This document shows, piece by piece, positions 9,905 to 32,702 of a DNA stretch of 38,609 nt. Position 1 is the first letter of the stretch. Every line of letters starts with the position of its first letter. The position numbers and the translations under genes are program-made. The DNA lies in contig JAHDEB010000015.1 of NCBI GenBank assembly GCA_020629055.1, positions 1-38,609 of the forward strand, written 5' to 3'. The notes under the pieces were generated by a model that ran no database searches, had not been told where the DNA came from, and worked only from the letters and a program-made list of their open reading frames with translations. The stretch is from Chloroflexota bacterium (GTDB lineage: Bacteria > Chloroflexota > Anaerolineae > Promineifilales > Promineifilaceae).

Positions 9905-11419
9905 ATGACGCAAAACTCCTTCTCTGAAATGTCACTTTCAAATAAAATAGCCCGTATGGGGATAGCTTATCTTAATTTGGACGGAGAAATATCCCATTCT
10001 AACCAAGTATGGGAAAGCTATTTTTCTAGAGATCTAAAAGAGTCAGAATTCTATTTAATAAATTTAGAAAAATTTACAAAGCTAGAATTTAGAACCATCG
10101 TCAGACAAATTCAGATTTCTAAGCAGCAAGTGATTGCTGACGTAGAATTGATGACTCTTGGGAATTCATTTCATTGGCAAATAGTGTTTGACCCAAAAAT
10201 TAATAATAATGGATTAGTGTCTTCTATTTTGGCCTGCGCACTTGAAGTTTCTTTTGAAGAAGCAACCAAAAATTCTCTCAAGATGCGGATGGAGGATCGG
10301 GCAAACAAGCTCCAAGCCGTTTTTGATGTCATTGCAGTTGCCACAGAAGCACATGAAAAAGAATTGGGCACTGTACTTCAAGGATGTTTAGAACAAGTAA
10401 TTGATTCAACCTATGCAAGCGGCGGAGCCATCCAATTACTAGATGCAGATGGTGATTATCTTGAACTGCATGCCCATGCGGGACTGGAAAAAGAAATTGT
10501 GACAGAGATGCAAGAAAGTTCGGCCGAGAGCGGTTTGTTTGGCTGGGCAGCATCGCATCAAGAACAATTAGTGTTACGGGATCTAACAAGCGACTGGCGC
10601 ACAAGTGAAGTGATTCGAAATAGTGATGTGAATGTCTATGCTGGCGTTCCGATGAATGCTGAGGGTGAATTGGTTGGGGTACTCAGCATCTTTCGTGAGA
10701 AGAAAAGAGCTTTTAGCCCCGATGATATTTCGATATTAGCATCTATTGCAGATCAGATTGGTGTGATTATTTCAAATCATCGGTTAAGAGCTGAAAATGA
10801 TCGACTGGTTTTATTGGAGGAACGCAACCGACTCGCAAGAGAGCTTCATGATGCGGTCACACAATCGCTTTATAGTAGTGTTTTACTGACGGAGGCCTTA
10901 AAAGTACAGGCCGGAAAACAAAACATTAGCAACGTAGAACAAATCGCTGAGCAACTCCAAACAAATGCGCACCAAGCCTTAAAAGAAATGCGGTTACTGA
11001 TTCACAATTTGCGGCCGTCAATTCTGTCTTCGGTAGGGCTGATTCGAGCGATTAGGCATCGGTTAAAAGCGGTAGAAGAAAGAGCTGGCGTCAGCCATCA
11101 TTTTAGCGTGAGTGGGGATATTAAAATACCTAAGCAGATCGAAGAAGCCTTGTATTTTGTGGTGCAAGAGGCATTAAATAATGCATTAAAGCATGCGAAA
11201 TCAAGCTTTATAGAGGTTTCCATCGATCAATCAAATTCTGAATTGGTTATTATAGTTCGAGATGAAGGGTGCGGATTTGATCCAAATAATTTGGATGAAG
11301 GTGGATTAGGTTTAATTAGCATGCAGGAACGCATCCATCAAATAAATGGGGAGCTAGACATTTTATCTGAACTAGATCAAGGCACTTCAATAAAAATTCG
11401 CTGGGAAGGAAAATTATGA
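9905..11419 (+). CDS. Soluble GAF-domain sensor histidine kinase (NarX/LuxR type)
   Basis: A 504-residue cytoplasmic kinase with no membrane segment. Domains: a PAS-like N-terminus (about 10-115), a short coiled linker, a GAF domain (about 145-292), HisKA_3 dimerisation/phosphoacceptor (about 305-375, ERNRLARELHDAVTQSLYSS with phospho-His315), and HATPase_c (about 408-504: N-box EALNNALKHAKS at 422-433, DEGCGFDP G1 box at 453-460, GGLGLISMQERI). GAGG precedes the ATG. It overlaps the response regulator gene by 4 bases, so the pair is a coupled two-component system. The GAF and PAS domains suggest an intracellular small-molecule or redox signal; no Cys/His cofactor ligand set is obvious. Confidence 0.95.
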   Translation: MTQNSFSEMSLSNKIARMGIAYLNLDGEISHSNQVWESYFSRDLKESEFYLINLEKFTKLEFRTIVRQIQISKQQVIADVELMTLGNSFHWQIVFDPKINNNGLVSSILACALEVSFEEATKNSLKMRMEDRANKLQAVFDVIAVATEAHEKELGTVLQGCLEQVIDSTYASGGAIQLLDADGDYLELHAHAGLEKEIVTEMQESSAESGLFGWAASHQEQLVLRDLTSDWRTSEVIRNSDVNVYAGVPMNAEGELVGVLSIFREKKRAFSPDDISILASIADQIGVIISNHRLRAENDRLVLLEERNRLARELHDAVTQSLYSSVLLTEALKVQAGKQNISNVEQIAEQLQTNAHQALKEMRLLIHNLRPSILSSVGLIRAIRHRLKAVEERAGVSHHFSVSGDIKIPKQIEEALYFVVQEALNNALKHAKSSFIEVSIDQSNSELVIIVRDEGCGFDPNNLDEGGLGLISMQERIHQINGELDILSELDQGTSIKIRWEGKL

Positions 11420-12069
11420 TTCGAGTTTTTCAAGCTGATGACCACGCCATTGTGCGAGATGGTATGCGCTGGTTACTCATGGGGGAAGATGATATTGAGT
11501 TGATTGGAGAAGCTGCCGATGGAGAGGCAGCCATACAAAAAATTGAAGAACTCAACCCCGACGTTATATTACTTGACTTACAAATGCCCAAAATGAGCGG
11601 TTTGGAAGCTATCCCTGAGATTCAGCGGGTTTCACCTGCGTCCAAAATTATTATTATCACCAGTTTTAGTGATGATGATCATGTTTTTCAAGCGATCCAA
11701 TCTGGTGCTGTAGGCTACTTGCTAAAAGACACAATGCCTCAAAAGATTTTGAAAGTGATTCGGGATGCGGCTGCAGGTCAAGCCTCTCTTGAGCCTGATA
11801 TAGCTCAGAGAGTTTTAGAGCGTGTGATGAAATCTACGAGATCTCAAAAGCCCTTAACAAAAGAACCCTTAACAGCCAGAGAGGTTGATATTTTAAAGTT
11901 CGTCGCAAAAGGTGCCACAAATATCGAAATTGCAGATCAATTGATTGTTAGTGAAAGAACTGTGCGCACGCATGTAAGTAATATTCTTGGCAAGTTGCAT
12001 TTAGCCAACCGGACCCAAGCAGCTTTATATGCTCTAAGAGAAGGAATCGCAAAACTAGACGATGAATAA
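11416..12069 (+). CDS. NarL/FixJ-family response regulator
   Basis: A 217-residue two-domain regulator. Receiver domain (1-120) with acidic pair DD at 8-9, phospho-acceptor Asp54 (VILLDLQMPK) and Lys104 (YLLKD). C-terminal LuxR/GerE helix-turn-helix (about 147-212, LTAREVDILKFVAKGATNIEIADQLIVSERTVRTHVSNIL). Encoded with the overlapping GAF kinase. NarL-type regulators bind paired heptamers in a 7-2-7 arrangement, and exactly such sites occur downstream of this gene and in the neighbouring carrier/ligase and transporter promoters, so those genes are its likely targets (inference). Confidence 0.96.
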   Translation: MIRVFQADDHAIVRDGMRWLLMGEDDIELIGEAADGEAAIQKIEELNPDVILLDLQMPKMSGLEAIPEIQRVSPASKIIIITSFSDDDHVFQAIQSGAVGYLLKDTMPQKILKVIRDAAAGQASLEPDIAQRVLERVMKSTRSQKPLTKEPLTAREVDILKFVAKGATNIEIADQLIVSERTVRTHVSNILGKLHLANRTQAALYALREGIAKLDDE

Positions 12070-12077
12070 GGCCAGCC

Positions 12078-12093
12078 TACGTCATTTGTCTTA
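12078..12093. promoter_or_regulatory. NarL-type 7-2-7 box, copy 1
   Basis: TACGTCA-TT-TGTCTTA: the left heptamer is identical to the perfect palindrome at 13589, the right matches 5 of 7. It lies 9 bases after the response regulator stop, ahead of the structured segment ending at the 12198-12230 terminator. A weaker TTAGTCA-TT-TGTTGCT follows at 12103. Confidence 0.5.
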
Positions 12094-12109
12094 GTTCAAA
12101 AATTAGTCA

Positions 12110-12230
12110 TTTGTTGCTTCAGCCTACTTACCAGTTTCTAGTAATCTATTGGTACTGCGTAGGTGTGCCTACGGAGAAATTGAGGAGAAGAACCTCTGAG
12201 CCATATCCACGTGATATGGCTCTTTTTTTT
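12110..12230 (+). ncRNA. Candidate structured small RNA or 3' UTR
   Basis: After the regulator gene the sequence folds into successive hairpins: TACCA/TGGTA (12129-12133 with 12150-12154), CGTAGG/CCTACG with a TGTG loop (12158-12173), GAGG/CCTC (12182-12196) and then a 10-bp intrinsic terminator. No coding frame with a start fits. It could be the structured 3' UTR of the two-component operon, or an independent small RNA driven from the NarL-type box at 12078. The 5' end is a guess and no clear -10 was found. Confidence 0.35.
12198..12230 (+). terminator. Rho-independent terminator
   Basis: GAGCCATATC (12198-12207), a 5-base loop and GATATGGCTC (12213-12222) form a perfect 10-bp stem followed by eight T residues. 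It ends plus-strand transcription after the two-component operon or the candidate small RNA. Confidence 0.9.
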
Positions 12231-12280
12231 CATGCAGCCCAATGTAGGCGAATAATTGATCACGATTGAGCTACATGAAA

Positions 12281-12321
12281 TTAGCCGGATTCTCGCAAAA
12301 AAATTGCGAAAAAACGGCTAA
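12281..12321. terminator. Nested hairpin between convergent transcripts
   Basis: TTAGCCG (12281-12287) pairs with CGGCTAA (12315-12321), and inside it TCGCAA (12293-12298) pairs with TTGCGA (12304-12309). On the minus strand the arms are separated by T-runs. It lies 46 bases beyond the SET-gene stop and probably ends that transcript. Confidence 0.45.
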
Positions 12322-12366
12322 GTCAATGATTGTCTATCTAGTTTGTGGGGTTCCGTTAACAACGGT

Positions 12367-12891
12367 TCAGCGAACAACCTGTTTATGTTGTAGTCGAAAT
12401 ATTCGATTACGAATATACGGAGAGAAATATTCCCAATACTTTTCTTGAAGCTCAGGGATCATCCAGTCATTTCCTGTCACAATTCCTCTGCATTGTGGAG
12501 CGCCACATTGACAGGTGAATTCATCATAGGTTGACCCATCACTCATTGCATAATCGAAACAAATTTCGTCACCTGAAAAAATGTCTCGCATTGCAACCAA
12601 AGTGATTGACCCTTGCAACCCAGCGTTCGGATCACAAGAATGGTTGACATAATCGGCCGGCTCAGCAGCTTCTAATGGGCCATAGGTTTGAAATAGATTC
12701 TCGTTGACCTGCAATCCGTGAGATCGGTTTTCATAGGGTAATTTCTCAAACTCGTCAATACTCCAAATATTGCCGCCCCACAGGCAAAGCAATTCACCAG
12801 CTTCGATATTTTGAGTCGCAAATACACCATACCCGTTCATTTCGGGTACAAATTTACCTTCTAGTTTTGGTGAAATATAAGATCGTGCCAT
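12367..12891 (-). CDS. SET-domain protein lysine methyltransferase-like protein
   Basis: A 174-residue protein consisting of one SET domain plus post-SET motif. Seen: GYGVFATQNIEAGELL (SET-N SAM-binding strand, about 20-35), NHSCDPN at 83-89, DEICFDYA at 108-115 with the catalytic-type Tyr114, and post-SET cysteines 127, 129 and 134 (FTCQCGAPQCRG). All key SET residues look intact. SET enzymes methylate protein lysine using SAM. It is read convergently with the two-component operon and on the same strand as the PRC-like and LysW-like mini-genes, 25 bases downstream of the former. A target within this system (for example a Lys of the carrier) is attractive but unproven. Confidence 0.88.
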   Translation of the reverse strand: MARSYISPKLEGKFVPEMNGYGVFATQNIEAGELLCLWGGNIWSIDEFEKLPYENRSHGLQVNENLFQTYGPLEAAEPADYVNHSCDPNAGLQGSITLVAMRDIFSGDEICFDYAMSDGSTYDEFTCQCGAPQCRGIVTGNDWMIPELQEKYWEYFSPYIRNRIFRLQHKQVVR

Positions 12892-12916
12892 CGCTAAATA
12901 AAAATCCTGATTTAGG

Positions 12917-13147
12917 TTATAAATGAAAAATAGAGTGTTTGTTTATATTGAGCATGACATGACCAGCAGAAATACGGTCAACATAATACAGATGAAGGTC
13001 AATAAAGTTTTGATCAGCTTCTAACTGTACTTGAATCGCTGAATCTGGTGTCTGTCGCACATCGACCACCGTGCCGATGTAGCCATCAATTGCACTAACC
13101 GGGTGGCCGATTAAGCTATACAACTCAAAATCTAAAAATTGGAACAT
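12917..13147 (-). CDS. PRC-barrel-like mini-protein (76 residues)
   Basis: The segment SLIGHPVSAIDGYIGTVVDVR (residues about 11-31) follows the PRC-barrel pattern (LIGxPV...DGxxIGxVxDV), and the rest is strand-rich (IQVQLEADQNFIDLHLYYVDRI). The ATG at 13147 is preferred because GGGGG sits a few bases upstream; a GTG at 13153 would add two residues. Lies between the SET and LysW-like genes in the same direction. PRC barrels are small protein- or RNA-interaction modules; no further function can be given. Confidence 0.55.
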   Translation of the reverse strand: MFQFLDFELYSLIGHPVSAIDGYIGTVVDVRQTPDSAIQVQLEADQNFIDLHLYYVDRISAGHVMLNINKHSIFHL

Positions 13148-13195
13148 TCGCACCCCCGTCTTTAAGGGACCTAATGCTATTTATAAGATGGGGAT

Positions 13196-13447
13196 TTACC
13201 ATCCCTGTGGGTCTGAATAGTAATCGTAGTTATCGTCGTAATCTGAATATGGGTTGTCAGCCGTATCCTCATAGTCAAAGGCCCAATCAAGGGTTAATGG
13301 GTTAAGCTCAACAATTTCCAGTTCAGTCCTACAAGATTTGCAGGTAAGTTTCTGCCCCAGCCTAGCTTTTGCATAAACTGACACCATACCATCACAAGAT
13401 GGGCAGTAGGCGGTTCTTTGACTAACTTTTGGATTGTTTTTGGACAT
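13196..13447 (-). CDS. LysW-like zinc-ribbon carrier protein with atypical C-terminus
   Basis: An 83-residue protein closely patterned on LysW, the amino-group carrier protein of LysW-mediated lysine/arginine synthesis. It has zinc-ribbon pairs Cys15/Cys18 and Cys36/Cys39 and the LysW-like run LG-x3-TC-x2-C-x3-LEIVELNPLTLD (residues 30-54). LysW normally ends in EDWGE, whose terminal Glu takes the substrate. Here the protein goes on for about 28 residues in an Asp/Tyr/Asn-rich tail and ends in SDPQGW, with no terminal Glu. GGAG precedes the ATG. It is divergent from the ATP-grasp-like gene, and NarL-type boxes lie between them. Most likely a carrier or scaffold for a novel conjugate; a precursor-peptide role is the main alternative. 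Confidence 0.78.
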   Translation of the reverse strand: MSKNNPKVSQRTAYCPSCDGMVSVYAKARLGQKLTCKSCRTELEIVELNPLTLDWAFDYEDTADNPYSDYDDNYDYYSDPQGW

Positions 13448-13553
13448 GATTTATCTCCAGAATATGGAACTGTTTTCAAATTTTGCAGTTCGATATTAAC
13501 GTTGCGTTTCAGCTTTTGTTCTCATAGTTTAAGAATGAGAAAAGAAATTAAAC

Positions 13554-13569
13554 ATCGCCATTTGACTTA
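13554..13569. promoter_or_regulatory. NarL-type 7-2-7 box, copy 2 (degenerate)
   Basis: ATCGCCA-TT-TGACTTA: the right heptamer matches TGACGTA at 6 of 7, the left is 4 of 7. Its centre is 35 bp from that of copy 3, in the shared promoter region of the carrier and ligase genes. Confidence 0.4.
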
Positions 13570-13588
13570 AGTTTTTAGGGTAAATCTT

Positions 13589-13604
13589 TACGTCATTTGA
13601 CGTA
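13589..13604. promoter_or_regulatory. NarL-type 7-2-7 palindrome, copy 3 (perfect)
   Basis: TACGTCA-TT-TGACGTA is a perfect inverted heptamer pair with 2-base spacing, the geometry of NarL binding sites (TACYYMT pairs). It lies between the divergent carrier and ATP-grasp-like genes. A possible -10 TACAAT at 13650-13655 would put the box about 65 bases upstream of the start of transcription, a plausible activator position. Confidence 0.65.
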
Positions 13605-13674
13605 GTCGAATTAAGAAAATCGGCCGATCCATATTTCAAAGGTCGCTCCTACAATGACGATTAGCTCCAACTAG

Positions 13675-15156
13675 ATGACCCGAAGGTCTATTTTCCAAAC
13701 CTCAAAAGCAAACAGAAAAAATATCATGACTTCTGCTTCACAACTGATTACACCTGGTCAATTTGACCCTGCCAAACACTGGTACGACAAAGCCTTAAAC
13801 GCTCAAATACACCCTCTTATTCACTTCTTTTTGAACCTTTCTTCCGATCGAATTATTAGTCGTTATTGTCATCTACATCCCTCAGCAAACAAACAAGCAT
13901 TAACAAATTTACTTGCATATAAGCCCAAATATTTCGCATGGTCCGGCAGCGATCTTTTGCATGTCACTTCAGCAACTGGGAAGCGGCAAATGATTATCGT
14001 TGAAACAAATTCTTGCCCTTCTGGGCAAAAGTCGATGCCATTGGTAGACGAAACCAATGAACAAGGTGGATACCGGCGTTTAATGGAAAACACGCTGATG
14101 CCGCGAGTTTTAAACAAAAGAAATCTGCCTAAAGGAGCTTTAGCGGTTTTATTTGATAAGAACCAAATGGAAGCCAGTGGTTATGCATCTGCAATGGCTG
14201 ACCTATTTAATGAACCTGTTTACCTAGTCAATACTTTCCATGAAAACCACTTAACAAGATGGAGTGATCGCAAACTAGAAATTTGTTCTGGGGATGGTAA
14301 ATGGATTCCAATTCGGGCTGCATTTCGCTATGTGACGCAGAGACCATGGTCGTCTATTCCTATAAACACCAAAACATTTATTTTTAATCCGATTATTGCT
14401 TGTTTGGCTGGCGGCCGAAACAAAATGGTTGCAGCGAAAGCTTATGATTTCTTCAATGGGGATATGGCGGAAAGCCAACTAAAAATACTAACACCAGAGA
14501 CGATCTGGGATGTGAGTAAAGCAGAAATACCTCTTTGGGTGAACCGGTTAGGAGGACAGGCTGTTGTGAAGGTCCCCTATAGCAATGCGGGCCAAGGTGT
14601 TTACACAATCGTCAATCAGGATGAGCTTAGTCATTTCATGTCCCAATCGTTCTTTTATGATCGCTTTATCGTGCAGAGTCTTATCGGAAATTTCAATTGG
14701 AGTTCGACCGGCTCAACGGGTAAGTTCTATCATGTTGGCACCGTGCCAAACTTAAAGGGGAACAGCTACGCGGCCGATTTGCGCATGATGATTCAATCAA
14801 CGAAAAAAGGCTTTAGACCCATGTCAATGTATGCGCGTCGAGCTGAGAAACCTCTCGTAAACACATTGAGCAATGGGGAGGACTCATGGTCTGTGCTCGG
14901 AACCAACCTATCAATCAAAAATACAGATGGCTCTTGGGGATCAAGCACAAATCGACTCTTGCTTGTTGATCGGCGCGACTTTAACAAGTTGGGAATTGGT
15001 TTAGATGACCTCATCGATGGATTTATTCAAAGCGTGATGGCAACCGTTGCGATCGACAAGATGGCGGAAAATCTGATTAACTCAAAAGGGATGTTAAAAG
15101 CACGCCTGTTCAAATCATTAAACGATGACCCCGCTTTGATTGAGGAGATATTTTGA
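13675..15156 (+). CDS. ATP-grasp-like ligase
   Basis: A 493-residue soluble protein. The best motif is GGQAVVKVPYSNAGQGVYTIV (about residues 297-317), the Lys-plus-glycine-loop segment of ATP-grasp enzymes; MIIVETNSCPSGQKSMPL (about 105-122) and a late LLLVDRRDFNKLGIG are also compatible. The size exceeds LysX/RimK-type ligases (about 280-300), so this is a different branch, with some flavour of glutathionylspermidine-synthase-like ATP-grasps. ATP-grasp enzymes join a carboxylate to an amine via acyl phosphate, fitting loading of the LysW-like carrier or peptide-bond formation. It is followed two bases later by the AstE-like gene. No ribosome site marks the start; Met18 at 13726 is equally possible. 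Confidence 0.62.
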   Translation: MTRRSIFQTSKANRKNIMTSASQLITPGQFDPAKHWYDKALNAQIHPLIHFFLNLSSDRIISRYCHLHPSANKQALTNLLAYKPKYFAWSGSDLLHVTSATGKRQMIIVETNSCPSGQKSMPLVDETNEQGGYRRLMENTLMPRVLNKRNLPKGALAVLFDKNQMEASGYASAMADLFNEPVYLVNTFHENHLTRWSDRKLEICSGDGKWIPIRAAFRYVTQRPWSSIPINTKTFIFNPIIACLAGGRNKMVAAKAYDFFNGDMAESQLKILTPETIWDVSKAEIPLWVNRLGGQAVVKVPYSNAGQGVYTIVNQDELSHFMSQSFFYDRFIVQSLIGNFNWSSTGSTGKFYHVGTVPNLKGNSYAADLRMMIQSTKKGFRPMSMYARRAEKPLVNTLSNGEDSWSVLGTNLSIKNTDGSWGSSTNRLLLVDRRDFNKLGIGLDDLIDGFIQSVMATVAIDKMAENLINSKGMLKARLFKSLNDDPALIEEIF

Positions 15157-15157
15157 A

Positions 15158-16132
15158 ATGACAGCTGATAATCTTGATGAGATCCCAGTCATAAAAGCAA
15201 TCGACATCGAATCGATACCACCAGCTTCCGTTCAAAGATACTGGCTGTATTTAACATCAGATGGCATAGGAACCCCGCAATATATTCCTGTCATCATTGT
15301 TCGAGGCATAAATGACAAGCATCTGGTTGGAATTACTGCAGCAATTCATGGAAATGAGCTTAATGGCATTCCTGTCATTCAAAGGTTAATAGGCAAAATC
15401 GATCCAACCAAACTTGAAGGGGTTTTGATATGTATACCCGTAACCAATGTTCCAGCGTTTTTACGCAAGCAGAGAGATTTTCTAGATGGTAAAGATCTAA
15501 ATCGAATTATGCCTGGCAATCAGCTTGGAAATGAAAGTGATATCTATGCTTATCGTTTGATTTCCCGTGTAATCAATGAGCTTGACTATCTAATCGATTT
15601 ACACACTGCAAGTTTTGGAAATATCAATTCGTTTTACGTTCGAGCTAATATGAACTTGCCGGACGTGGCTCAAATGGCATGCATGCTCAACCCTCAAATA
15701 ATTGTGCACAAGAAAAGTGAAGGTACCCTCAGATATGCGGCAGAAGATTTGGGCATTCACGCAGTTACCGTCGAAATTGGAGATCCCAACCGATTTCAGG
15801 AATCAATGATCTCAAACGCTTTAGAGGGAATCTTAAACACACTTAAAGGGTTGGGCATGATCAAGGGAAAGGTCAAGGCTGCCACTCAACCACCTGTCGA
15901 GTGTGATGGCTCTTATTGGTTGCACACGAATCAAGGGGGATTGGTAGATGTTTACCCTGAATTAGCTGATTTTGTAGAACAAGGGGAGGTGGTAGCTAGA
16001 GTCTACAATGTATTTGGAGATGTCTTAGAAACTTACCAAGCTCCCGAATCTGGGATTGTTATTGGCAAAAACACGTACCCTGTTAACCAAACTGGCGGCC
16101 GAATATTACACTTGGGCATACCCGTTGATTGA
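15158..16132 (+). CDS. AstE/AspA-type zinc hydrolase (succinylglutamate desuccinylase/aspartoacylase family)
   Basis: A 324-residue M14-related enzyme. Zinc and catalytic residues are all present: His64 and Glu67 (AAIHGNELNG), DLNR at 113-116, His149 (YLIDLHTASFG) and the general-base Glu206 (VTVEIGD). A C-terminal beta domain (about 240-324) is typical of the family. The start at 15158 has TGAGGAG upstream; a start at 15140 would overlap the ligase. Family members remove acyl or aminoacyl groups by amide hydrolysis, so here it could release the product from the carrier, the role LysK plays in LysW pathways (analogy, not homology). Translationally linked to the ATP-grasp-like gene. Confidence 0.88.
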   Translation: MTADNLDEIPVIKAIDIESIPPASVQRYWLYLTSDGIGTPQYIPVIIVRGINDKHLVGITAAIHGNELNGIPVIQRLIGKIDPTKLEGVLICIPVTNVPAFLRKQRDFLDGKDLNRIMPGNQLGNESDIYAYRLISRVINELDYLIDLHTASFGNINSFYVRANMNLPDVAQMACMLNPQIIVHKKSEGTLRYAAEDLGIHAVTVEIGDPNRFQESMISNALEGILNTLKGLGMIKGKVKAATQPPVECDGSYWLHTNQGGLVDVYPELADFVEQGEVVARVYNVFGDVLETYQAPESGIVIGKNTYPVNQTGGRILHLGIPVD

Positions 16133-16147
16133 TTTCATATGCCAGTT

Positions 16148-16163
16148 TACGTCATTTGTCGCA
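16148..16163. promoter_or_regulatory. NarL-type 7-2-7 box, copy 4
   Basis: TACGTCA-TT-TGTCGCA: the left heptamer is perfect and the right matches 5 of 7. It lies at the start of the 218-bp gap before the MFS gene, about 200 bases from its ATG, so the transporter may have its own regulated promoter. The rest of the gap shows no further feature. Confidence 0.5.
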
Positions 16164-16350
16164 TTAAATTTGCTCTAAATGATGGATGTCAACGAAATCG
16201 GAACTCATTTCCATTTTAACTATTGGCAGATGGCGGTTTTTTCAACTGCAACGAATCCATCCATCAAAATCTGATTCCAACCCGATCTGTTTTCGATAGG
16301 AAGCTCTTTTAATCTAACTTTCCACCGAAAACATAAAAGGGATTTTTCCC

Positions 16351-17538
16351 ATGCTTTATAGACGATCTGTATTAGTCAATCAAATTCCGGCCGATGCAAA
16401 TTCTTCTCTAGGCCGATTGGCCGCTGTTGAAGGATTTGTGCGAGCCGTCATGGTTGGTGTTATCCCGTTGGTAGCTTTCGAGATTTTTGGGGACAAAGAG
16501 TCAATTGCTCGCATCTACTTTTTTAGCACCCTATTCACACTTTTGTTCACGCTCAACTTACAAAGATTGGAGATACTTCTAAAACGACGAGGCTTAGTTA
16601 CCTTGAGTACCGTTTTATTAATTATTGCAATCATCTTTTACTGGAGTGAAAGTCCCGTCCTATTTGCAATTGCAGTCGGTGTACAAGCAGCTGGTGCATC
16701 AATCTTTTCTGTTTGCATATCACTTTATGTGATGGATTATATTGGGAAAACAGACTTTACCCGTGCTGAATCTAGCCGGCTTCTATATGTCGGCTTCGCT
16801 TGGCTCATTGGCCCAACATTGGGCGGGTGGCTGTTTGGTATTGGCTCTGCAAGTTGGGTGTATCTCACAGCAATTTCAGCCTCGGTCGTCTTAGTCGCTT
16901 ACTTTTGGTATTTGAGAATGGGTGATGATGTTGTTATTAAACCTGCAGTCTCTCAATCAACTAATCCACTTAAAGCGATTCGAATGTTTTTCAAACGGCC
17001 GAACTTGCGCATCGCTTATTTAATTACATTGAGCCGGGCTTGTTTTTGGGCGATGCTATTTACATATGGGCCGATTTATATCATAGAAGCTGGGATGCCT
17101 GCTTGGGCAAGTGGAATGCTGCTTTCTGGAGCAAGTGGGCTACTGTTTCTTAGTCCCATCATCAAGCGACTGGCAGATCAAGTTGGAACTAGGCAAGTCA
17201 TTATTTTTAGCCTATTGCTGATTGGATCTAGTCTGATCGGGCTTGGCATCATTGGGCCAGCTAGACCAATCGGTTTGTTATTTTTCATAACAGGCTCGTT
17301 AGGTGGTGCAAGCATGGACGTATTGAGCAATATCCCTTTTATGCGTATGGTTAAGCCTTCAGAACGTACAGCAATGACTACAGTTTTCTCTACATGGCGA
17401 GAAAGTTCGTCATTCTTGACACAGGCAATGGTTGGCATTACTCTGGTTGTTGCTCCATTCTGGGCTTTCTTCTTTGTTTTAGCAGGGCTCCAAATCGTAA
17501 CAGCCATAGCCTCGACTTACCTGCCACGCCGAATCTAA
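16351..17538 (+). CDS. MFS transporter
   Basis: A 395-residue polytopic membrane protein with about 12 hydrophobic segments in two halves, and a central cytoplasmic loop around residues 195-215 (SQSTNPLKAIRMFFKRPNLR), as in the major facilitator superfamily. Drug/metabolite exporter-like overall; a substrate cannot be read. It follows the ligase/hydrolase pair on the same strand and has an upstream NarL-type box, so it is best read as exporter (or importer) for the product of the carrier system. The ribosome site is weak (AAAAGGG). Confidence 0.85.
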   Translation: MLYRRSVLVNQIPADANSSLGRLAAVEGFVRAVMVGVIPLVAFEIFGDKESIARIYFFSTLFTLLFTLNLQRLEILLKRRGLVTLSTVLLIIAIIFYWSESPVLFAIAVGVQAAGASIFSVCISLYVMDYIGKTDFTRAESSRLLYVGFAWLIGPTLGGWLFGIGSASWVYLTAISASVVLVAYFWYLRMGDDVVIKPAVSQSTNPLKAIRMFFKRPNLRIAYLITLSRACFWAMLFTYGPIYIIEAGMPAWASGMLLSGASGLLFLSPIIKRLADQVGTRQVIIFSLLLIGSSLIGLGIIGPARPIGLLFFITGSLGGASMDVLSNIPFMRMVKPSERTAMTTVFSTWRESSSFLTQAMVGITLVVAPFWAFFFVLAGLQIVTAIASTYLPRRI

Positions 17539-25014: not shown

Positions 25015-25962
25015 CTAACTTTGCACCGCAGCAATTACGGCCGCCATCGCAATATCTTCCGCTTTTGATCCTCGCGATAAATCGTGAATCGGTTTGGCAA
25101 ACCCTTGAAGCAAAGGGCCTATCGCTTGGGCGCCACCGATCCGTTCAGTAATTTTATAGGCGATGTTGCCTGCATCTAAGTTTGGGAAAATATAGACGTT
25201 CGCCTGCCCCGCAACGGCCGACCCGGCCGCCTTGCGCTCACCCACACTGGGGACAAACGCCGCATCAAACTGCAGTTCACCGTCTAGCATCAGCTCGGGG
25301 GCCATCTTTTGGGCGATGGCGGTCGCCTCGCGCACTTTGGCCACAGAGTCTGAATCTGCGCTCCCTTTGGTGCTGAACGACAGCATGGCGACCTTCGGCC
25401 CTTCACCGGTTAATTGGGTATGGGTCGCGGCCGATTTCACCGCAATGTTGGCCAACTGCTCGGCATCAGGATCAGGTACCATGCCACAGTCCCCATACGT
25501 CAGTGCCGTTCCATCCTGCAAAATCATCAAGAAGACGCTGCTGGCTAAATTGTTCCCTTCTTCTAAACCGATCAGCTGTAGCGCCGCCCTTAACACATCG
25601 CGTGTCGCATGGACCGCCCCGGCCACGCAGCCATCGGCCAATCCGGCCCGAACCATAAGCGCCCCAAATGTGAGCGGGGCAGCAACACCTTCATAGGCGG
25701 CCTCGGCCGTGACCCCTTTATGCTGGCGCAGCTCAAAAAACAGGTCGGCCATCGCTTGCCGCTGGTCACTGTCTTCAGTTTGGATCGTTTGAACACCGGG
25801 GTGATCAGTTTTTCCGTTCAGCAAAATCGGCCGAACGGTCCCTTCGTCTGCCAAAATTTCGGCCGCACGCACCACACGCGGGTCGTTTCCTTCCGGCAAT
25901 ACGATTGTTTTTTCGGCCGCTTTGGCTCGAGCTTTTAAGTTATTGATTACAGAATTAGTCAT
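25015..25962 (-). CDS. pta: Phosphate acetyltransferase
   Basis: A 315-residue short-form phosphotransacetylase (usual length about 320-340). Seen: KTIVLPEGNDPRVVRAAEILADEG at the N-terminus, PELMLDGELQFDAAF (about 218-232), and the C-terminal signature ANVYIFPNLDAGNIAYKITERIGGAQAIGPLLQGFAKPIHDLSRGS, the classic Pta block. It interconverts acetyl phosphate and CoA with acetyl-CoA and phosphate in the cytoplasm. In taurine pathways Pta takes the acetyl phosphate made by Xsc; xsc lies about 2.5 kb upstream on the same strand, so a joint role is likely although two other genes and a terminator intervene. No clear Shine-Dalgarno. Confidence 0.92.
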   Translation of the reverse strand: MTNSVINNLKARAKAAEKTIVLPEGNDPRVVRAAEILADEGTVRPILLNGKTDHPGVQTIQTEDSDQRQAMADLFFELRQHKGVTAEAAYEGVAAPLTFGALMVRAGLADGCVAGAVHATRDVLRAALQLIGLEEGNNLASSVFLMILQDGTALTYGDCGMVPDPDAEQLANIAVKSAATHTQLTGEGPKVAMLSFSTKGSADSDSVAKVREATAIAQKMAPELMLDGELQFDAAFVPSVGERKAAGSAVAGQANVYIFPNLDAGNIAYKITERIGGAQAIGPLLQGFAKPIHDLSRGSKAEDIAMAAVIAAVQS

Positions 25963-25977
25963 GAGTTTAATCGATAG

Positions 25978-26062
25978 GGAGATAGAGAAGGATAGAGACA
26001 GAGTACAGAGATAGGGAAATTGCTCACGAGCCTCTTTTCTCTATCTCTTATCTCTATCCTTC
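25978..26062. repeat. GA/CT-rich hairpin-forming intergenic repeat
   Basis: The left half is made of GATAGAGA-type words (near 25978-26010), the right half of their complement CTCTATCTCTTATCTCTATCC (26040-26062). The two halves can form a long imperfect stem. The same vocabulary appears in the tpa/xsc gap at 28379-28454. It spans the gap between cupin and pta genes. No start or stop signals inside. Confidence 0.6.
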
Positions 26063-26077
26063 CCCACCCTTGAAAAT

Positions 26078-26467
26078 TTATTGATATTGATAATCGACTT
26101 GTTTAAAGGAGTCTACCGGAAAAGAATAAAAGACGAGCAACTTTTGCTCACCCGTTGCACCGATTGTATGGACGGCGTTCCCCGGTATAAAGACGGTGGA
26201 CCCGCTTGACACCGCATGGCGTTCGCCATCGCATAGCACAAACCCTTCCCCACCGATTATATAGTAGCTTTCGGCCGGTGTATGTTGATGAACCGTCAAT
26301 TGTTCCCCAGGCGGGATTTCGACAAAGCCGTGGGTTAGCCCAGCCGTTGGGGTTTTGTCTGAACTCATCAGCGTTTTCCAACGGACTCGGCCGTGTTCTG
26401 TTTCAGCATACACATCCCGCGTTTCCCATGGCAAATCTTGCTGCCTAACAATCGTAGCTTTGCCCAT
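26078..26467 (-). CDS. Single-domain cupin protein
   Basis: A 129-residue cupin. Motif 1 is PPGEQLTVHQHTPAESYYIIGGEG (His-x-His-x4-Glu, residues about 54-76) and motif 2 is GSTVFIPGNAVHTIG (His near 101). The metal-binding set is complete. Start supported by GGAGG. Single-domain cupins may be dioxygenases, isomerases or sensors, so no reaction can be given. Lies between pta and an unknown gene on the same strand, in the tail of the taurine neighbourhood. Confidence 0.85.
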   Translation of the reverse strand: MGKATIVRQQDLPWETRDVYAETEHGRVRWKTLMSSDKTPTAGLTHGFVEIPPGEQLTVHQHTPAESYYIIGGEGFVLCDGERHAVSSGSTVFIPGNAVHTIGATGEQKLLVFYSFPVDSFKQVDYQYQ

Positions 26468-26482
26468 TCATCCTCCAAACGA

Positions 26483-26911
26483 TCAGCTCGTCGGCCGTTT
26501 TAAAAACTCACCTTTTAAGCATGGTGTAGACCAAAACCAACCGACCCAATCTGCGTACAAAACCCCATCTTGCTTAATGTTGGACCAAACTTGATTAGAC
26601 AAATTGTGCCTATCCTGCAAAAAAAGGTGATTGATTCTAGAGGGTACAAACTTGAGTTCACCCTGCCAAAGAATCACGCCTTCGTCCCCAAAAATACGCA
26701 AATAATCGCCTGAGTGCAAAAAATAGCCCCGGCCGCCGTTCACAGATTCTCGATCATCATTAGGAACAAAAACATAGTCAAAGCCCCCTTCCATCCCTTG
26801 TTCCCAATATGGTTCGATGAAACCAGAAACAAGTTCACCCTCAGGCCAGTCGGCCGTTTGAAGCTCGCTTTGACGTTGAGGCAGCAGTCGGTCTAATAAA
26901 GCTTTGATCAT
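26483..26911 (-). CDS. Hypothetical protein (142 residues)
   Basis: A soluble protein with no signal peptide or membrane helix, unusually rich in Trp and Gly (GFIEPYWEQGMEGGFDYVFV, YADWVGWFWSTPCL). Strand-like segments dominate (YFLHSGDYLRIFGDEGVILWQGELKFVPS). No domain recognised. It is 15 bases upstream of the cupin gene and shares its direction, so they are probably co-transcribed; a terminator at 26926-26960 separates both from tpa. Confidence 0.55.
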   Translation of the reverse strand: MIKALLDRLLPQRQSELQTADWPEGELVSGFIEPYWEQGMEGGFDYVFVPNDDRESVNGGRGYFLHSGDYLRIFGDEGVILWQGELKFVPSRINHLFLQDRHNLSNQVWSNIKQDGVLYADWVGWFWSTPCLKGEFLKRPTS

Positions 26912-26925
26912 GGCACAATGGTAAC

Positions 26926-26960
26926 AAAAAAGGGTGGCACCTGAAACCAGATACCACCCT
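26926..26960 (-). terminator. Rho-independent terminator after tpa
   Basis: On the minus strand AGGGTGG (26954-26960 side) pairs with CCACCCT (26931-26937 side), with an inner CTG/CAG stem and a GTTT loop, followed by six T residues (A-tract at 26926-26931 on plus). It ends the xsc-tpa transcript. Confidence 0.8.
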
Positions 26961-26982
26961 GAATGCTAAATACTGACAACTG

Positions 26983-27003
26983 GCCCTTCGACAGGCTCAG
27001 GGC
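26983..27003. repeat. CCCTTCGACAGGCTCAGG palindromic intergenic repeat
   Basis: A short imperfect palindrome (GCCCT ... AGGGC arms) just beyond the tpa stop. I recall this CCTTCGACAGGCTCAGG word as a common intergenic repeat in many bacterial genomes (from memory). A degenerate copy is at 9849-9866. Confidence 0.55.
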
Positions 27004-27006
27004 AAG

Positions 27007-28371
27007 CTAAATAATCTTCTTCAAGCCATTCTCAACCGCACCAACGATACGGTCAGCTTCCGCTTTGGTAATCGTCAATGGTGGTGATAGAACCAGAACG
27101 TTGCACAGACCGGGAACGGTGTTGCCGTTTTTACCGATAATCACACGCTCTTCTTTCGCACTACCGATCACTTTATCGATCAAGGCCGGGTCGATGGTTT
27201 CGCGTGTTTCTTTGTTCGCAACCAGCTCGATACCAAACAGCATCCCTTTGCCGCGAACCTCACCCACGTTAGGGTGCTCAAGCAGTTGGTCAAACTGTTC
27301 CTGCATATATGCGCCCATCTCGGCCGAACGTGTGACCAACCCTTCACGCTCGATGATCTCGATGTTTTTAAGTGCAACGGCCGTTGCCACCGGATGCCCA
27401 CCATAGGTGTTGATATGACGATAGTGACTCATGTCTCCAGGATTGCCGATAAAGGCATCATAGATTTTTTGGTTCACAATCGTTGCTGCCAACGGTTGAT
27501 AGCCGCTAGCGATACCTTTCGCACAGGTGATAATGTCCGGTTTAACATCCCAGTGTTGATGTCCAAACATCGTTCCGGTACGGGCAAAGCCTGACACCAC
27601 TTCGTCAAAGATCAGCAACACGCCGTATTTGTCACAAATTTCCCGCACCCGAGGTATATAGTTGTCAGGTGGGATCAAGACGCCACCACCGGAAATCATC
27701 GGTTCCATGATGAACGCCGCAACCGTTTCTTGACCTTCATAAATGATGGTTTGCTCAAGCTCGGCCGCAACCTGCTCCCCGTGCTCTTCAGGGGTCAAGT
27801 TCATATGACGACGATATGGATAGGGTGGGTTGATGTGGCGAATTTCGGCCGGTTGGTTACCAAAGCCAATTTTGCGTTCCGCTTGACCCGTTGCCCCAAT
27901 TGCTGCATAGGTATTACCGTGATACGCACGGTAGCGTGAAATAATTTTGCGGCGTAAATAGCCGCGTGGTTCACCAGACTGTTGGTGATACTGCCACACC
28001 ATCTTGAATGCCGCTTCGTTCGCTTCAGACCCTGACGGGGTGAAGTAAACGTGCCCATTCATTTTGGTGAGTTCTAAAAGTTTTGCTGCTAATTTTGCTG
28101 TGGGTTCCGCAATAAATGAAGGGCTTAGATAACCTAAATTCAACATTTGGTCATAAGCCACTTTGGCAAGTTCTTCACGGCCGTAGCCTACGTTTACGCA
28201 CCAGATGCCTGCAATCGCATCTAGCCACTCGTTGCCGTGCTCGTCGGTTAAAGTCGCGCCTTCGCCTTTTACAATAACAGGGGGTGGGGCTTTTTGAATA
28301 TTTTTGTGTTGCTTAAGCGGGTGCCACAAAGAGTCAACACTGGTTTGGGAAATATTTGTTAAGGTAGCCAT
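27007..28371 (-). CDS. tpa: Class III aminotransferase, probable taurine:pyruvate aminotransferase
   Basis: A 454-residue fold-type-I aminotransferase. PLP Lys285 (DIITCAKGIASGYQPLAA), Asp256 (LLIFDEVVSGFARTG), the phosphate-cradle FTPSGSEANEAAFKM (about 110-124) and YHGNTYAAIGATG (about 150-162) are typical of class III omega-aminotransferases. The Tpa call rests on context: 92 bases downstream of xsc and inside a tauABC locus. It would convert taurine and pyruvate to sulfoacetaldehyde and alanine. Alternative amine donors in the class (beta-alanine, GABA, putrescine) cannot be excluded by sequence alone. No Shine-Dalgarno near the ATG, so coupling to xsc is likely. Confidence 0.85.
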   Translation of the reverse strand: MATLTNISQTSVDSLWHPLKQHKNIQKAPPPVIVKGEGATLTDEHGNEWLDAIAGIWCVNVGYGREELAKVAYDQMLNLGYLSPSFIAEPTAKLAAKLLELTKMNGHVYFTPSGSEANEAAFKMVWQYHQQSGEPRGYLRRKIISRYRAYHGNTYAAIGATGQAERKIGFGNQPAEIRHINPPYPYRRHMNLTPEEHGEQVAAELEQTIIYEGQETVAAFIMEPMISGGGVLIPPDNYIPRVREICDKYGVLLIFDEVVSGFARTGTMFGHQHWDVKPDIITCAKGIASGYQPLAATIVNQKIYDAFIGNPGDMSHYRHINTYGGHPVATAVALKNIEIIEREGLVTRSAEMGAYMQEQFDQLLEHPNVGEVRGKGMLFGIELVANKETRETIDPALIDKVIGSAKEERVIIGKNGNTVPGLCNVLVLSPPLTITKAEADRIVGAVENGLKKII

Positions 28372-28378
28372 TTCTAGT

Positions 28379-28454
28379 AAAGAGTAGAGAGATTAGAGAC
28401 AAGAGATGCTGAACTAAATCCAACCTCCTATCTCTATCCTCTCTTCTCTATCCT
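28379..28454. repeat. GA/CT-rich hairpin in the xsc-tpa gap
   Basis: AGAGTAGAGAGATTAGAGA-type words on the left (28379-28407) and TATCTCTATCCTCTCTTCTCTATCC-like complement words on the right (28429-28454) can pair imperfectly. Built from the same words as 25978-26062. It occupies nearly all of the 92-base gap between the xsc stop and the tpa start. Confidence 0.55.
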
Positions 28455-28463
28455 TTTGTCTGT

Positions 28464-30194
28464 TTACGCGTTGGTTGATTCGTATTTTTTGAGCTTGCGC
28501 GCTGGCAATTTCAAAGCGTCGCGACGGAATGGTTCAGCCAATACAGCCTCTCCACCCTCGATGACAGCGTCGATTACAACCGGCCGGTTTGCAGCAATCG
28601 CTTCAGCAATCGCATCACCAACTTGGTCTTGATGGGTAATCTTAATACCTACTGCGCCCATGTTTTTCGCCAGTTCAGCGTAATCTGGGTTGGTGCGCAA
28701 GTTAGAACCGATATAACGATCGCCGTAGAAGTCGATTTGGTTTTTCTTCTCAGCGCCCCATTCTTTGTTGTTCGCGACGATGGTGATTACAGGAATCTCT
28801 TCACGAACAAGTGTCATGATCTCAGCTAAACCGCCGATACCGTATGCACCATCACCGGTGAAGGCAAATGATGGCGCATCTGGGCGACCCAATTTCGCAC
28901 CCATCGCTGCACCCACAGAGAAGCCGCAGTTACCCCAGCTAAGTGCTGAAATGTGCTGACGAGCTCCTTCAAAGTGGAAGTAGTCGTTTGACATTGAACA
29001 AGTGTTACCGATATCGGTAGAAACCATCGCGTTCTTTGGAACCGCTTTTGATAGTTCAGAAAGCAAACGACGTGGATGCATCGCTTCGGTGACTTGATCT
29101 GCACCCCAGTTATGTTTTTCTTCGTTCCAACGCGCATTTTCGGCGTCGATTTTATCCATCTTTTCTTCGTCTGGTCGACGACCTGGATCAGCAGCCATAA
29201 CCATGCCGGTGAACTCACGGGTGAACTCTTTCACGTCAGCCAAGCTGGCCACGTCAACTTTCATCGTCAAGCCCAACACTTTGTGGTTGACATCAACCTG
29301 GATAATCTTGGCATCTTTTGGCCAATATTCCATGTCGTACTGTGGCAAGGTACCAAATGGTCCAAGACGGGTGCCAAGAGCCAATACAACGTCAGCTTCT
29401 TTGATTGTGCGCATCGCAGCTTTAGATCCGCAATAGCCGATCGGGCCAACGGCCAATGGATGGTCGTTCGGGAAGCTGTCGTTGTGCAAATAGGTGTTAA
29501 CAACAGGAACAGTTAGGTACTCGGCCAACGCTTTCACTTCTGCTTGAGCATCAGCTTGAGAAACACCGCCACCTGCTAAAATCACAGGGTTCTTCGCATT
29601 CATGACCAATTGAAGCGCTTCTTCTAGGTTGGCACGTGGGCCAGCACCACGGGTAATGTCAAGGCTTGGGTACACTTCGTACTCAGCTTCGCCGTAAAAT
29701 TTGTTACGTGGAATGTTAAGCTGGGTTGGGCCGTTTTCTACTTTTGCACGGTAGAAACATTGGCGGGCCAATTCAGCCATACGCTCATGATCGCTTACAC
29801 GCACTTGGTAAACGGTTTGTTTTTCGAACATTGGCATTTGGTCTAGCTCTTGGAAGCCACCGTTGCCAAGTCCCATAGAACCGGTTTCTGGGGTAATACA
29901 CACAACGGGAGAGTGTGCCCAATAAGCTGCGGTAATCGCACTAACAAAGTTAGCGATACCAGGGCCGTTTTGAGCGATACAAACCTGTGGTTTACCGGTA
30001 ACACGGGCCAATGCGTCGGCCGCGTGGGCTGCCGCTTGCTCATGTGCTACAGAAATAAAGCGAATTCCCGCACTTGGGAAAAGGTCCAATGCGTCCATAA
30101 ACGCAGAACCGACGATACCGAATACATATTCAACCCCTTCAGCTGCTAGTGTTTCTACTAGTGCCTCACTGGGTGTCATGAGTTGTTTTGCCAT
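28464..30194 (-). CDS. xsc: Sulfoacetaldehyde acetyltransferase
   Basis: A 576-residue ThDP enzyme of the acetolactate-synthase group with the Xsc-specific N-terminus MTPSEALVETL...FGIVGSAFMDALDLFP and AAYWAHSPVV, TPETGSMGLGNGGFQE. ThDP residues: Glu52 (HEQ) and the Mg-binding GDGA at 447-450 through NN at 475-476. It converts sulfoacetaldehyde plus phosphate into acetyl phosphate plus sulfite, the desulfonation step of taurine breakdown. AAGGAG precedes the ATG. It begins a transcript with tpa from a promoter carrying ATTGGT boxes. The sulfite outlet (exporter or sulfite dehydrogenase) is not in this window. Confidence 0.95.
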   Translation of the reverse strand: MAKQLMTPSEALVETLAAEGVEYVFGIVGSAFMDALDLFPSAGIRFISVAHEQAAAHAADALARVTGKPQVCIAQNGPGIANFVSAITAAYWAHSPVVCITPETGSMGLGNGGFQELDQMPMFEKQTVYQVRVSDHERMAELARQCFYRAKVENGPTQLNIPRNKFYGEAEYEVYPSLDITRGAGPRANLEEALQLVMNAKNPVILAGGGVSQADAQAEVKALAEYLTVPVVNTYLHNDSFPNDHPLAVGPIGYCGSKAAMRTIKEADVVLALGTRLGPFGTLPQYDMEYWPKDAKIIQVDVNHKVLGLTMKVDVASLADVKEFTREFTGMVMAADPGRRPDEEKMDKIDAENARWNEEKHNWGADQVTEAMHPRRLLSELSKAVPKNAMVSTDIGNTCSMSNDYFHFEGARQHISALSWGNCGFSVGAAMGAKLGRPDAPSFAFTGDGAYGIGGLAEIMTLVREEIPVITIVANNKEWGAEKKNQIDFYGDRYIGSNLRTNPDYAELAKNMGAVGIKITHQDQVGDAIAEAIAANRPVVIDAVIEGGEAVLAEPFRRDALKLPARKLKKYESTNA

Positions 30195-30280
30195 TTTTTC
30201 TCCTTAAGAAGTTCAGAGGTGTCTTACAGAATGTTTTTAATGATGGGAATAAACACAGCGCATATCCCCATCCAAAATTT

Positions 30281-30356
30281 ATATTAGATTCGCAACATAT
30301 TAACCCAAATTGGTACGGTTGCAAGAACCAATTACATAGTCTTTCATGGTACCAAT
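30281..30356 (-). promoter_or_regulatory. xsc promoter with three ATTGGT boxes
   Basis: Minus-strand -35 TTGGGT (30303-30308) and -10 TAATAT (30281-30286), 16 bases apart, about 90 bases before the xsc start. ATTGGT occurs next to the -35 (30309-30314, plus) and on the minus strand at 30327-30332 and 30351-30356. The same word is found upstream of tauB and tauA, so these are candidate TauR-like binding sites. Confidence 0.45.
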
Positions 30357-30371
30357 CATTCCAATTTTACA

Positions 30372-30410
30372 TAAAAAAAGGCCGATGACATAAGCGTATA
30401 TCATCGGCCT
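30372..30410 (-). terminator. Rho-independent terminator after tauC
   Basis: AGGCCGATGA (30379-30388) pairs with TCATCGGCCT (30401-30410), with further inner pairs, and on the minus strand the stem is followed by a T-run (A-tract at 30373-30379 on plus). It separates the tauBC transcript from xsc-tpa. Confidence 0.9.
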
Positions 30411-30480
30411 CCAAGATTGTTTAGGTTCGGTTAGAAATTAACCCGATGAACCATCAGTAACCAGTGGAAAATCGGAAGTT

Positions 30481-31356
30481 TTATCCTTTACCACGCCATG
30501 GAATCAGCCAGCCTTCAAGGACGCGCATCAACACGTCCATCGCGACACCGATGATACCAATTAAAACGATACCGATAATAACGATTTCTGTCAGGAAGAA
30601 CTTCTGAGCAACCCAGATCATCTGACCCAAGCCTTCTTGCGCACCCAACAGTTCGGCCGCAACCAGCGTACCCCAGCAAACACCAAGGGCCACACGCATA
30701 CCGATAAAGATCTCTGGTAAGGCATTGGGCAATATTACATAGCGCAGCACCTGCCACTTGGATGAACCAAGCGAATAGGCGGCATGTACTTTGGATAGCT
30801 TCACACCCAAAACCCCAGATCTCGCAGCGATCACCATAATCCATAGTGCAGCTAGAAACAGCAGAAGCCGTTTTGATTCTTCGCCAATCCCGAACCAGAT
30901 GATAACTAGAGGGATAAAAGCAAGAGGTGGAATAGGGCGGAAGAACTCAACGATAGGGTCGAATAACCCTCGCAAGGTGTTTGACAAGCCCATCGCTAGG
31001 CCGAGCGGAATGCCCACAAGGCATCCGTACCCAAAGCCCCACAAAATGCGCGACAAACTTGCACGTACATGTTCACCCAGCGTCACACGCCGATACCCTT
31101 CAAGGGCAACTTCGCGATATTTTTCCCAAACCGAGCCGGGGCCTGGTAGAAACTCTGGGTCGGTCCATTCAAAACGAGCCGACATCACCCATAAAGTAAC
31201 CAATACGACGATTCCGACAATGCTCCAAAACAAACTACCGGTGATAGCCGAGCCATCACCAAATGTGACAGTTTTACGTTCGGTTGTACCAACTCGGGTT
31301 AACCCTAGGCCGGCCAAGATACGTGTCATTAAACTTTTTTCTGTTTCAGCAGCCAT
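30481..31356 (-). CDS. tauC: Taurine-type ABC transporter permease
   Basis: A 291-residue inner-membrane permease of the TauC/SsuC family with about six helices. The EAA cytoplasmic loop is HAAYSLGSSKWQVLRYVILPNALPEIF (about residues 190-216), which contacts the ATPase. The N-terminal about 45 residues are polar (MAAETEKSLMTRILAGLGLTR). The ATG is three bases past the tauB stop and has GAGGAGAGG before it, so tauBC is one unit. Imports taurine or another sulfonate with TauA and TauB. Confidence 0.9.
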   Translation of the reverse strand: MAAETEKSLMTRILAGLGLTRVGTTERKTVTFGDGSAITGSLFWSIVGIVVLVTLWVMSARFEWTDPEFLPGPGSVWEKYREVALEGYRRVTLGEHVRASLSRILWGFGYGCLVGIPLGLAMGLSNTLRGLFDPIVEFFRPIPPLAFIPLVIIWFGIGEESKRLLLFLAALWIMVIAARSGVLGVKLSKVHAAYSLGSSKWQVLRYVILPNALPEIFIGMRVALGVCWGTLVAAELLGAQEGLGQMIWVAQKFFLTEIVIIGIVLIGIIGVAMDVLMRVLEGWLIPWRGKG

Positions 31357-31359
31357 AAT

Positions 31360-32424: not shown

Positions 32425-32553
32425 ATTTCTTCTTCCCGGTAATTAGATATAAATTTATTGGCTTCCGATTGTTGCACCTAGTTGCTTGCATATTGAACCC
32501 CATTCATACAGATATATCTAAAAAATATTACAAAGTTTTTGAAAAAGCTTGGC

Positions 32554-32562
32554 ATTGGTTCC
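32554..32562. promoter_or_regulatory. ATTGGT box upstream of tauB
   Basis: ATTGGTTCC, the same word as in the xsc and tauA promoter regions, 130 bases before the tauB start. The 278-base gap between tauB and tauA (32425-32702) otherwise holds only the tauA terminator and an AT-rich stretch near 32510-32540. Confidence 0.35.
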
Positions 32563-32644
32563 TTTTAACACGTTCATGATAGACACAAACCATAGGAAGT
32601 GAGGGGCCAAAGTTTGTTCGCTTTGTTATTTAGTTGTAGCTATT

Positions 32645-32681: not shown

Positions 32682-32702
32682 GGTCTAAATCAAAATCAGA
32701 GA

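Follow-up and report, generated by a model that had tools for sequence, protein, structure and literature searches.

An apparently undescribed ATP-grasp ligase and AstE-type hydrolase cassette adjoins a signalling module in a genus of Chloroflexota

Background

Positions 9,905 to 17,538 of the window, a 38,609-nt stretch of DNA from a Chloroflexota metagenome-assembled genome (MAG) by whose positions all coordinates here are numbered, hold genes for a sensor kinase, a response regulator, a SET-domain protein, a 78-aa mini-protein, a zinc ribbon, a ligase (F0), a hydrolase (F1) and a major facilitator superfamily (MFS) transporter. Do these eight genes belong together, and what chemistry might they perform? 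A preliminary description read them as a pathway of the LysW kind, in which an ATP-grasp enzyme loads the zinc ribbon, the hydrolase frees the cargo and the MFS transporter exports it. All eight, from kinase through MFS transporter, are intact frames at the positions first assigned to them and belong to the families expected; the exceptions are the ligase, for which no curated model gives a match, and the mini-protein, which matches no family at all. We find that the ligase and hydrolase make up a real and conserved cassette, which is apparently undescribed and whose distribution extends well beyond the window genus.

The partnership of F0, F1 and F2 across phyla

Among 84,980 species genomes scanned, 37 F0 loci were found, in Bacteroidota, Chloroflexota, Planctomycetota, Acidobacteriota, Pseudomonadota-labelled genomes, Schekmanbacteria, Halanaerobiales, Vallitaleaceae and one Lokiarchaeota MAG, although many of these genomes are MAGs and a lone odd placement could reflect an error in binning. 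F1 adjoins F0 in 30 of the 37. Among the other seven, the contigs of L011, L037 and L039 end too early, L041 and L042 are two F0 pieces of a single genome, and F1 is missing within reach of F0 in L017 and L026. Within the Lewinella order, where F0 is present in 40 of 199 genomes, loci with 1.5-kb flanks carry F1 in 28 of 30 cases and a third gene, F2, in 25 of 30 (a sample that shares four genomes with the 37-locus set). In another count F2 stands beside F0/F1 in 20 loci, with matches to GSH-S_ATP of up to 1e-42, and is a GshB-like ATP-grasp enzyme: PF02955 is found in 14/14, and the best solved match is Escherichia coli GshB (7.5e-42). The F2 of L041, and possibly that of further loci, may be more akin to RimK. 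Gene order varies among loci (F0-F2-F1, F2-F0-F1 and F0-F1-F2), and the persistence of the partnership while order changes is good evidence that the three genes share a pathway. The co-occurrence of carrier, ligase and hydrolase anticipated in the preliminary description thus holds for ligase and hydrolase and fails for the carrier, as no zinc ribbon was found adjoining F0-F1 in other phyla.

Together, the ligase family without a curated model, the AstE-type hydrolase and the GshB-like F2 would constitute a widespread small-molecule pathway for which we found no named product, nor did we find a paper on the combination of ligase and hydrolase. The cassette is found in the cultured Neolewinella and Acanthopleuribacter and in many uncultured lineages. 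In the window genus the cassette contains no F2 and has the MFS gene instead; the best candidate for an F2 elsewhere in the window genome is canonical GshB, and was rejected. Since the window genome is the only one with F0 among 400 genomes of its phylum, the window genus probably acquired this gene. In the F0 tree the window clade is the sister group of Bacteroidota, at moderate support, while the F1 tree gives it another position on a very short branch.

Several loci carry further genes beside the cassette. A gene for an Sfp-type 4'-phosphopantetheinyl transferase directly follows F0-F1 at L025:12433-13065 and L036:2075-2749, which are related loci, one of them Planctomycetota-labelled. In the Lokiarchaeota MAG (L026:9995-14252), F0 is flanked by a permease-like gene and by an opposite-strand pair of YcaO and RimK/GshB-like genes, and the 21 kb retrieved contain no F1. 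In a locus of the order F1-F0, the beginning of F1 is overlapped by a gene for a GNAT acetyltransferase (L033:8495-9025), and two Bacteroidota loci have SET-domain genes just upstream of the cassette (L011:2784-3407 and L012:7965-8585), approximately 28% identical to the SET protein of the window.

Family and predicted fold of the ligase

Searches of Pfam, NCBIfam and the PDB with the F0 sequence were essentially blank, and because none of its 31 close relatives can be placed in a Pfam family, F0 together with these relatives appears to represent an undescribed family. An AlphaFold2 model built from 32 sequences (mean predicted local distance difference test score, pLDDT, 88; predicted template modelling score, pTM, 0.90) matched eukaryotic glutathione synthetases over nearly its full length in Foldseek (E 2e-9), with 60 matches at E<=0.001, the best 50 of which are nearly all ATP-grasp proteins. 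In VIA-align the putative γ-glutamylcysteine synthetase 3k1t came first (327 residues aligned, Z 17.9), followed by homoglutathione and glutathione synthetases (Z ~14); 2hgs and 3kal are also among the structures that match the predicted fold. LysX, RimK and Ddl gave Z scores of 12-14 (~13-14 for LysX and Ddl) over the core ATP-grasp region only, and LysX and Ddl were rejected as the nearest kin of F0, given that they align in this core alone and do not outrank the match to glutathione synthetases (GSS) and GshA. The model supports the assignment of F0 as an ATP-grasp enzyme with a GSS/GshA-type fold, so that the earlier proposal of an ATP-grasp ligase is supported at the level of a predicted fold, and the earlier distinction between this ligase and LysX is right.

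Two kinds of known enzyme are most similar to F0. The GshA-type γ-glutamylcysteine synthetase of the Acidithiobacillus/Methylobacillus kind (PF08886, 3k1t) has the closest fold and a similar length, and F0, like glutathione synthesis genes, is often partnered with a GshB-like gene. However, F0 is ~12% identical to this enzyme in the structural alignment, is partnered with an AstE-type hydrolase, and gives no match over the cut-off: PF08886 had no match in any of the 32 F0 members (E<=1) and none over the cut-off in 14 F0-bearing genomes. Nor did 148 genomes of the phylum of genome G457 yield a PF08886 sequence for a comparison of profiles. Eukaryotic glutathione synthetase and the bacterial GspS/YgiC/YjfC proteins (GSS-type) match F0 over its full length in Foldseek and share with it an E-x-N-[ST] motif, yet F0 has other partners and does not match GSP_synth (PF03738), a family with no match in the window genome at E<=0.001. 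The alignment of relatives contains two invariant motifs, E110-x-N112-S in the N-terminal half and K299-x-PYxNAGQGV. The former resembles, by eye and without residue-level superposition, EINT 144-147 of human glutathione synthetase, the Glu and Asn of which are Mg ligands.

The hydrolase

F1 is of the AspA/AstE/DoeB type by its PF24827 match, and its nearest solved relatives are 3cdx, 3na6 and DoeB (6twl/6twm). It possesses the two-His plus one-Glu zinc site and the catalytic Glu: the zinc ligands H64, E67 and H149 (numbered from ATG 15158) are invariant in 30 sequences, as are R106, R133, D113, N115 and E206, which confirms the earlier identification of an AstE-type hydrolase with its catalytic residues in place. 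With the DoeB/AspA/AstE zinc deacylases it shares the catalytic domain, zinc ligands and C-terminal beta-domain; it falls far under the equivalog cut-offs, however (78 bits vs 403 for DoeB). The residue that follows DLN, Arg in the window, varies: 19 of 30 relatives have His, Thr or Gln there. In aspartoacylase this position is the Arg that binds the substrate carboxylate, and its variation suggests another substrate for F1.

A homologue of F1 from a further locus (L094:2923-3912, + strand), 45% identical to that of the window, has lost zinc ligands (HGNALNG, DVQTA) and is likely to be a pseudo-enzyme. Its neighbours are a receiver-domain gene on one side and a Ddl-like ATP-grasp gene on the other.

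Gene layout and synteny in the window genus

The features of the block are summarised in Table 1, in which the likely starts of F0 and F1 were judged by comparison with relatives. The candidate terminator hairpin lies 3' of the regulator, between converging units.

Table 1 Features of the kinase-to-transporter block in the window, with identities to the sister genome G002
Feature	Coordinates	Strand	Evidence and remarks
GAF + HisKA_3 + HATPase_c soluble sensor kinase, 504 aa	9905..11419	+	66% identical in G002
NarL/LuxR-type response regulator, 217 aa	11416..12069	+	4-base overlap with kinase; 81% in G002
Intrinsic-terminator-like hairpin, 10 pairs + T run	12198..12222	+	Consensus scan; candidate
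SET-domain protein, 174 aa	12367..12891	-	PF00856, 1.3e-14; 73% in G002
Mini-protein, 78 aa	12917..13153	-	53% in G002
LysW-like zinc ribbon with acidic tail, 83 aa	13196..13447	-	PF21344, 1.3e-9
F0 ATP-grasp ligase, 493-aa open reading frame	13675-15156; likely start ATG 13726	+	Predicted fold
F1 AstE/AspA/DoeB-like zinc amide hydrolase	TTG 15140-16132; likely start ATG 15158	+	PF24827, 2e-31
MFS transporter, 395 aa; end of the block	16351..17538	+	PF07690, 1e-25; 64% in G002

The sister genome G002 carries all eight genes with their order kept, at 53-82% identity, and has one extra gene in the block, for a C45-type acyltransferase/hydrolase (AAT; PF03417, 8.7e-19). Its MFS gene starts 8 bases after F1. 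No other protein of the window has a match in the 19.9 kb of G002 examined, and the flanks differ on both sides. Because the block is syntenic in G002 between unrelated flanks, the genes from kinase to transporter are a unit in the window genus and not a chance neighbourhood. This agrees with the earlier grouping of the kinase, regulator, SET protein, mini-protein, zinc ribbon and transporter with the ligase and hydrolase. A third genome, G003, has F0, F1 and a partial MFS gene on a short contig, and two congeners (G001 and G004) are without F0; the SET gene was not found there either. Searches of phage and plasmid collections gave no match, and a phage or plasmid origin was rejected. A TGACGTA element occurs in the intergenic region between zinc ribbon and F0 in both species, but was rejected as a regulator-binding motif, its frequency being no higher than expected by chance. 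The mini-protein yielded a low-confidence model with RimM as its best Foldseek match (E 0.024), and a PRC-barrel-like fold is possible on this basis.

Proposed mechanism and the glutathione context

Taken together, we favour, with reasonable though far from complete confidence, the interpretation that F0 and F1 form a glutathione-like amide ligase/hydrolase cassette for a small-molecule substrate, which in the window genus stands beside a signalling module. Most likely F0, together with F2 in those lineages that have it, uses ATP to build a small amide or peptide out of amino-acid-like substrates. Judging by its class, F0 would phosphorylate a carboxylate on an amino acid or small peptide and couple it with an amine; any F2 would then extend the product. 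The role of F1 would be to split an amide, either of the product or of an intermediate that is protected, and so to release, trim or turn over the compound. In the window genus the MFS transporter presumably moves substrate or product, perhaps outwards, the kinase and its regulator would answer to a signal and so might regulate the block, and the SET-domain protein might contribute a methylation, as the preliminary description suggested.

Several observations weigh against this interpretation. The F0 of the window has no Pfam match at E<=1, the best among its relatives being RimK at 0.006; its kinship with GshA is drawn from a predicted fold at the low identity given above, and the resemblance of its E-x-N motif to that of human glutathione synthetase was judged by eye. 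The synteny of the full block is that of two genomes, the window genome and G002. In 7 of 43 loci (see below), acidic-tail zinc ribbons related to that of the window adjoin genes of another ATP-grasp type, the Ddl-like one, such that a link between ligase and ribbon is conceivable. Finally, canonical GshA and GshB are present in the window organism, and F0 need not make a glutathione precursor.

The latter two genes stand side by side on contig C74 of the window genome, on which ground F0 was rejected as its GshA. G002 likewise has both, and because the two genomes already possess canonical GshA and GshB, F0 is an addition to existing glutathione genes in this genus. Outside the genus, 10 of 14 F0-bearing genomes (from Lewinellaceae, other Bacteroidia, and Thalassovita-labelled and Lokiarchaeota MAGs) have no PF04262 match and a marginal or no PF04107 match, and hence no clear canonical GshA; the other four have strong PF04107 matches. 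A glutathione-like role for F0 and F2 is possible in Bacteroidota. An alternative hypothesis is that F0 and F2 constitute a second route of this kind, from a gamma-glutamyl dipeptide to a tripeptide that F1 trims, the product possibly being a new low-molecular-weight thiol. The best fold match of F0 to GshA, the best match of F2 to GshB and the ten genomes without a clear GshA are all consistent with such a route, yet we consider it unlikely, given that the window genus combines canonical GshA and GshB with F0 and lacks F2 in the cassette, and that a hydrolase plays no part in known glutathione synthesis.

The zinc ribbon and its relatives

The zinc ribbon of the window matches PF21344 above the curated cut-off and contains the zinc-ribbon globular domain, and scores 23.8 bits against TIGR01206 (lysW), for which the cut-off is 53.2. 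LysW is defined by the attachment of cargo at the C-terminal Glu of EDWGE (PMC10433800). The window protein has neither this Glu nor EDWGE; it ends in DPQGW and its G002 sister in RNGQY, and the tails of its acidic-tail relatives vary in sequence while being acidic in nearly all members. The true LysW of the window genome (…EEDWGE) is encoded on contig C65 beside LysX and lysine/arginine-type genes, so that the LysX/ArgX-type ligase adjoins this protein and not the window ribbon.

Zinc-ribbon homologues of both kinds, LysW and non-LysW, occur in 47 of 59 relatives, and we fetched the surroundings of 60 loci (43 non-LysW and 17 LysW). The neighbour query genes were picked after some of these loci had been viewed, and the counts describe a pattern rather than provide an unbiased test: a kinase or response-regulator gene lies within 3.5 kb in 28 of the 43 non-LysW loci vs none of the 17 LysW loci, and the bands at 5-8.5 kb of the non-LysW loci hold 2 (270 and 204 kb surveyed); also within 3.5 kb of the 43 non-LysW ribbons are Ddl-like ATP-grasp genes in 7 cases, GreA-like genes in 5, lysine-2,3-aminomutase-like genes in 4 and an AAT gene in 1. 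In G021 a SET gene lies 3.8 kb from the zinc ribbon. The ribbon is a member of a Chloroflexota acidic-tail family that is regularly accompanied by signalling genes, and in a recurrent minority of cases by ATP-grasp genes. The repeated placement of such ribbons next to kinase/regulator genes is, after the cassette, a second feature of Chloroflexota that calls for explanation. Judging from its sequence and neighbours, the window ribbon is most likely part of the signalling half of the block and not a covalent carrier of the LysW type.

A recurrent Chloroflexota module (L111:8346-10756, L125, L145 and L150) joins an acidic zinc ribbon to a lysine-2,3-aminomutase-like gene and a Ddl-like ATP-grasp ligase, along with a winged-helix regulator that has a weak receiver domain (not seen in all), and is possibly a beta-amino acid pathway.

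If ribbon and ligase do interact, F0, or Ddl-like ligases elsewhere, might couple amino acids to the acidic tail at its Asp/Glu side chains, a mark linked to signalling that F1 or an AAT-type hydrolase reverses, comparable to tubulin glutamylation or to RimK activity rather than to a biosynthetic carrier. Swapped types of ATP-grasp enzyme and of amide hydrolase (AstE, AAT) do stand beside the same ribbon together with kinase/regulator genes, the acidity of the tails is nearly universal, and G010 has kinase, regulators, AAT, ribbon and Ddl-like ligase in a row. However, most zinc-ribbon loci have no ATP-grasp gene nearby, F0-F1 work without a ribbon in other phyla, and the closest folds to F0 act on small molecules, so that tagging of this kind seems improbable. 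A bolder proposal would reconcile both contexts, with swappable ligases (F0, Ddl-like) and hydrolases (AstE, AAT) that write and erase ribbon tags under kinase/regulator control as a signalling chemistry of Chloroflexota, and with F0-F1(-F2) engaged in glutathione-like metabolism elsewhere; we regard this as quite unlikely.

The LysW carrier pathway of the preliminary description is very unlikely, and was rejected. In its favour are the common ribbon family (PF21344), the nearness of a metallohydrolase and of an ATP-grasp enzyme, a ribbon gene that adjoins F0 and is divergent from it in the two genomes of the genus whose context is complete, and related ribbons beside Ddl-like genes and KamA in the loci counted above. 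Against it, the attachment residue is missing from a tail that is unconserved in the sister and across the family, a true LysW/LysX pair is encoded elsewhere in the genome, no carrier linkage was found outside the genus, F0 is GSS/GshA-like rather than LysX-like, and the hydrolase is not LysK.

Other genes in the window

Outside the block, positions 25015-36098 (- strand) hold a taurine-use-like set comprising a phosphate acetyltransferase, a class III aminotransferase, a thiamine pyrophosphate enzyme (Xsc-like by eye) and an ATP-binding cassette (ABC) transporter. Within it, the match of an ABC ATPase of the taurine/nitrate kind (31360-32424, -) is split by an insertion of ~85 residues that resembles, by eye, transmembrane helices. 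A single frame of 1131 aa (32703-36098, -) contains two tandem NMT1/TauA-like substrate-binding domains, in which a 300-nt core is 84% identical at a spacing of 981 nt, and after them a third, different periplasmic-binding-like region, making it an unusual multi-domain ABC binding protein.

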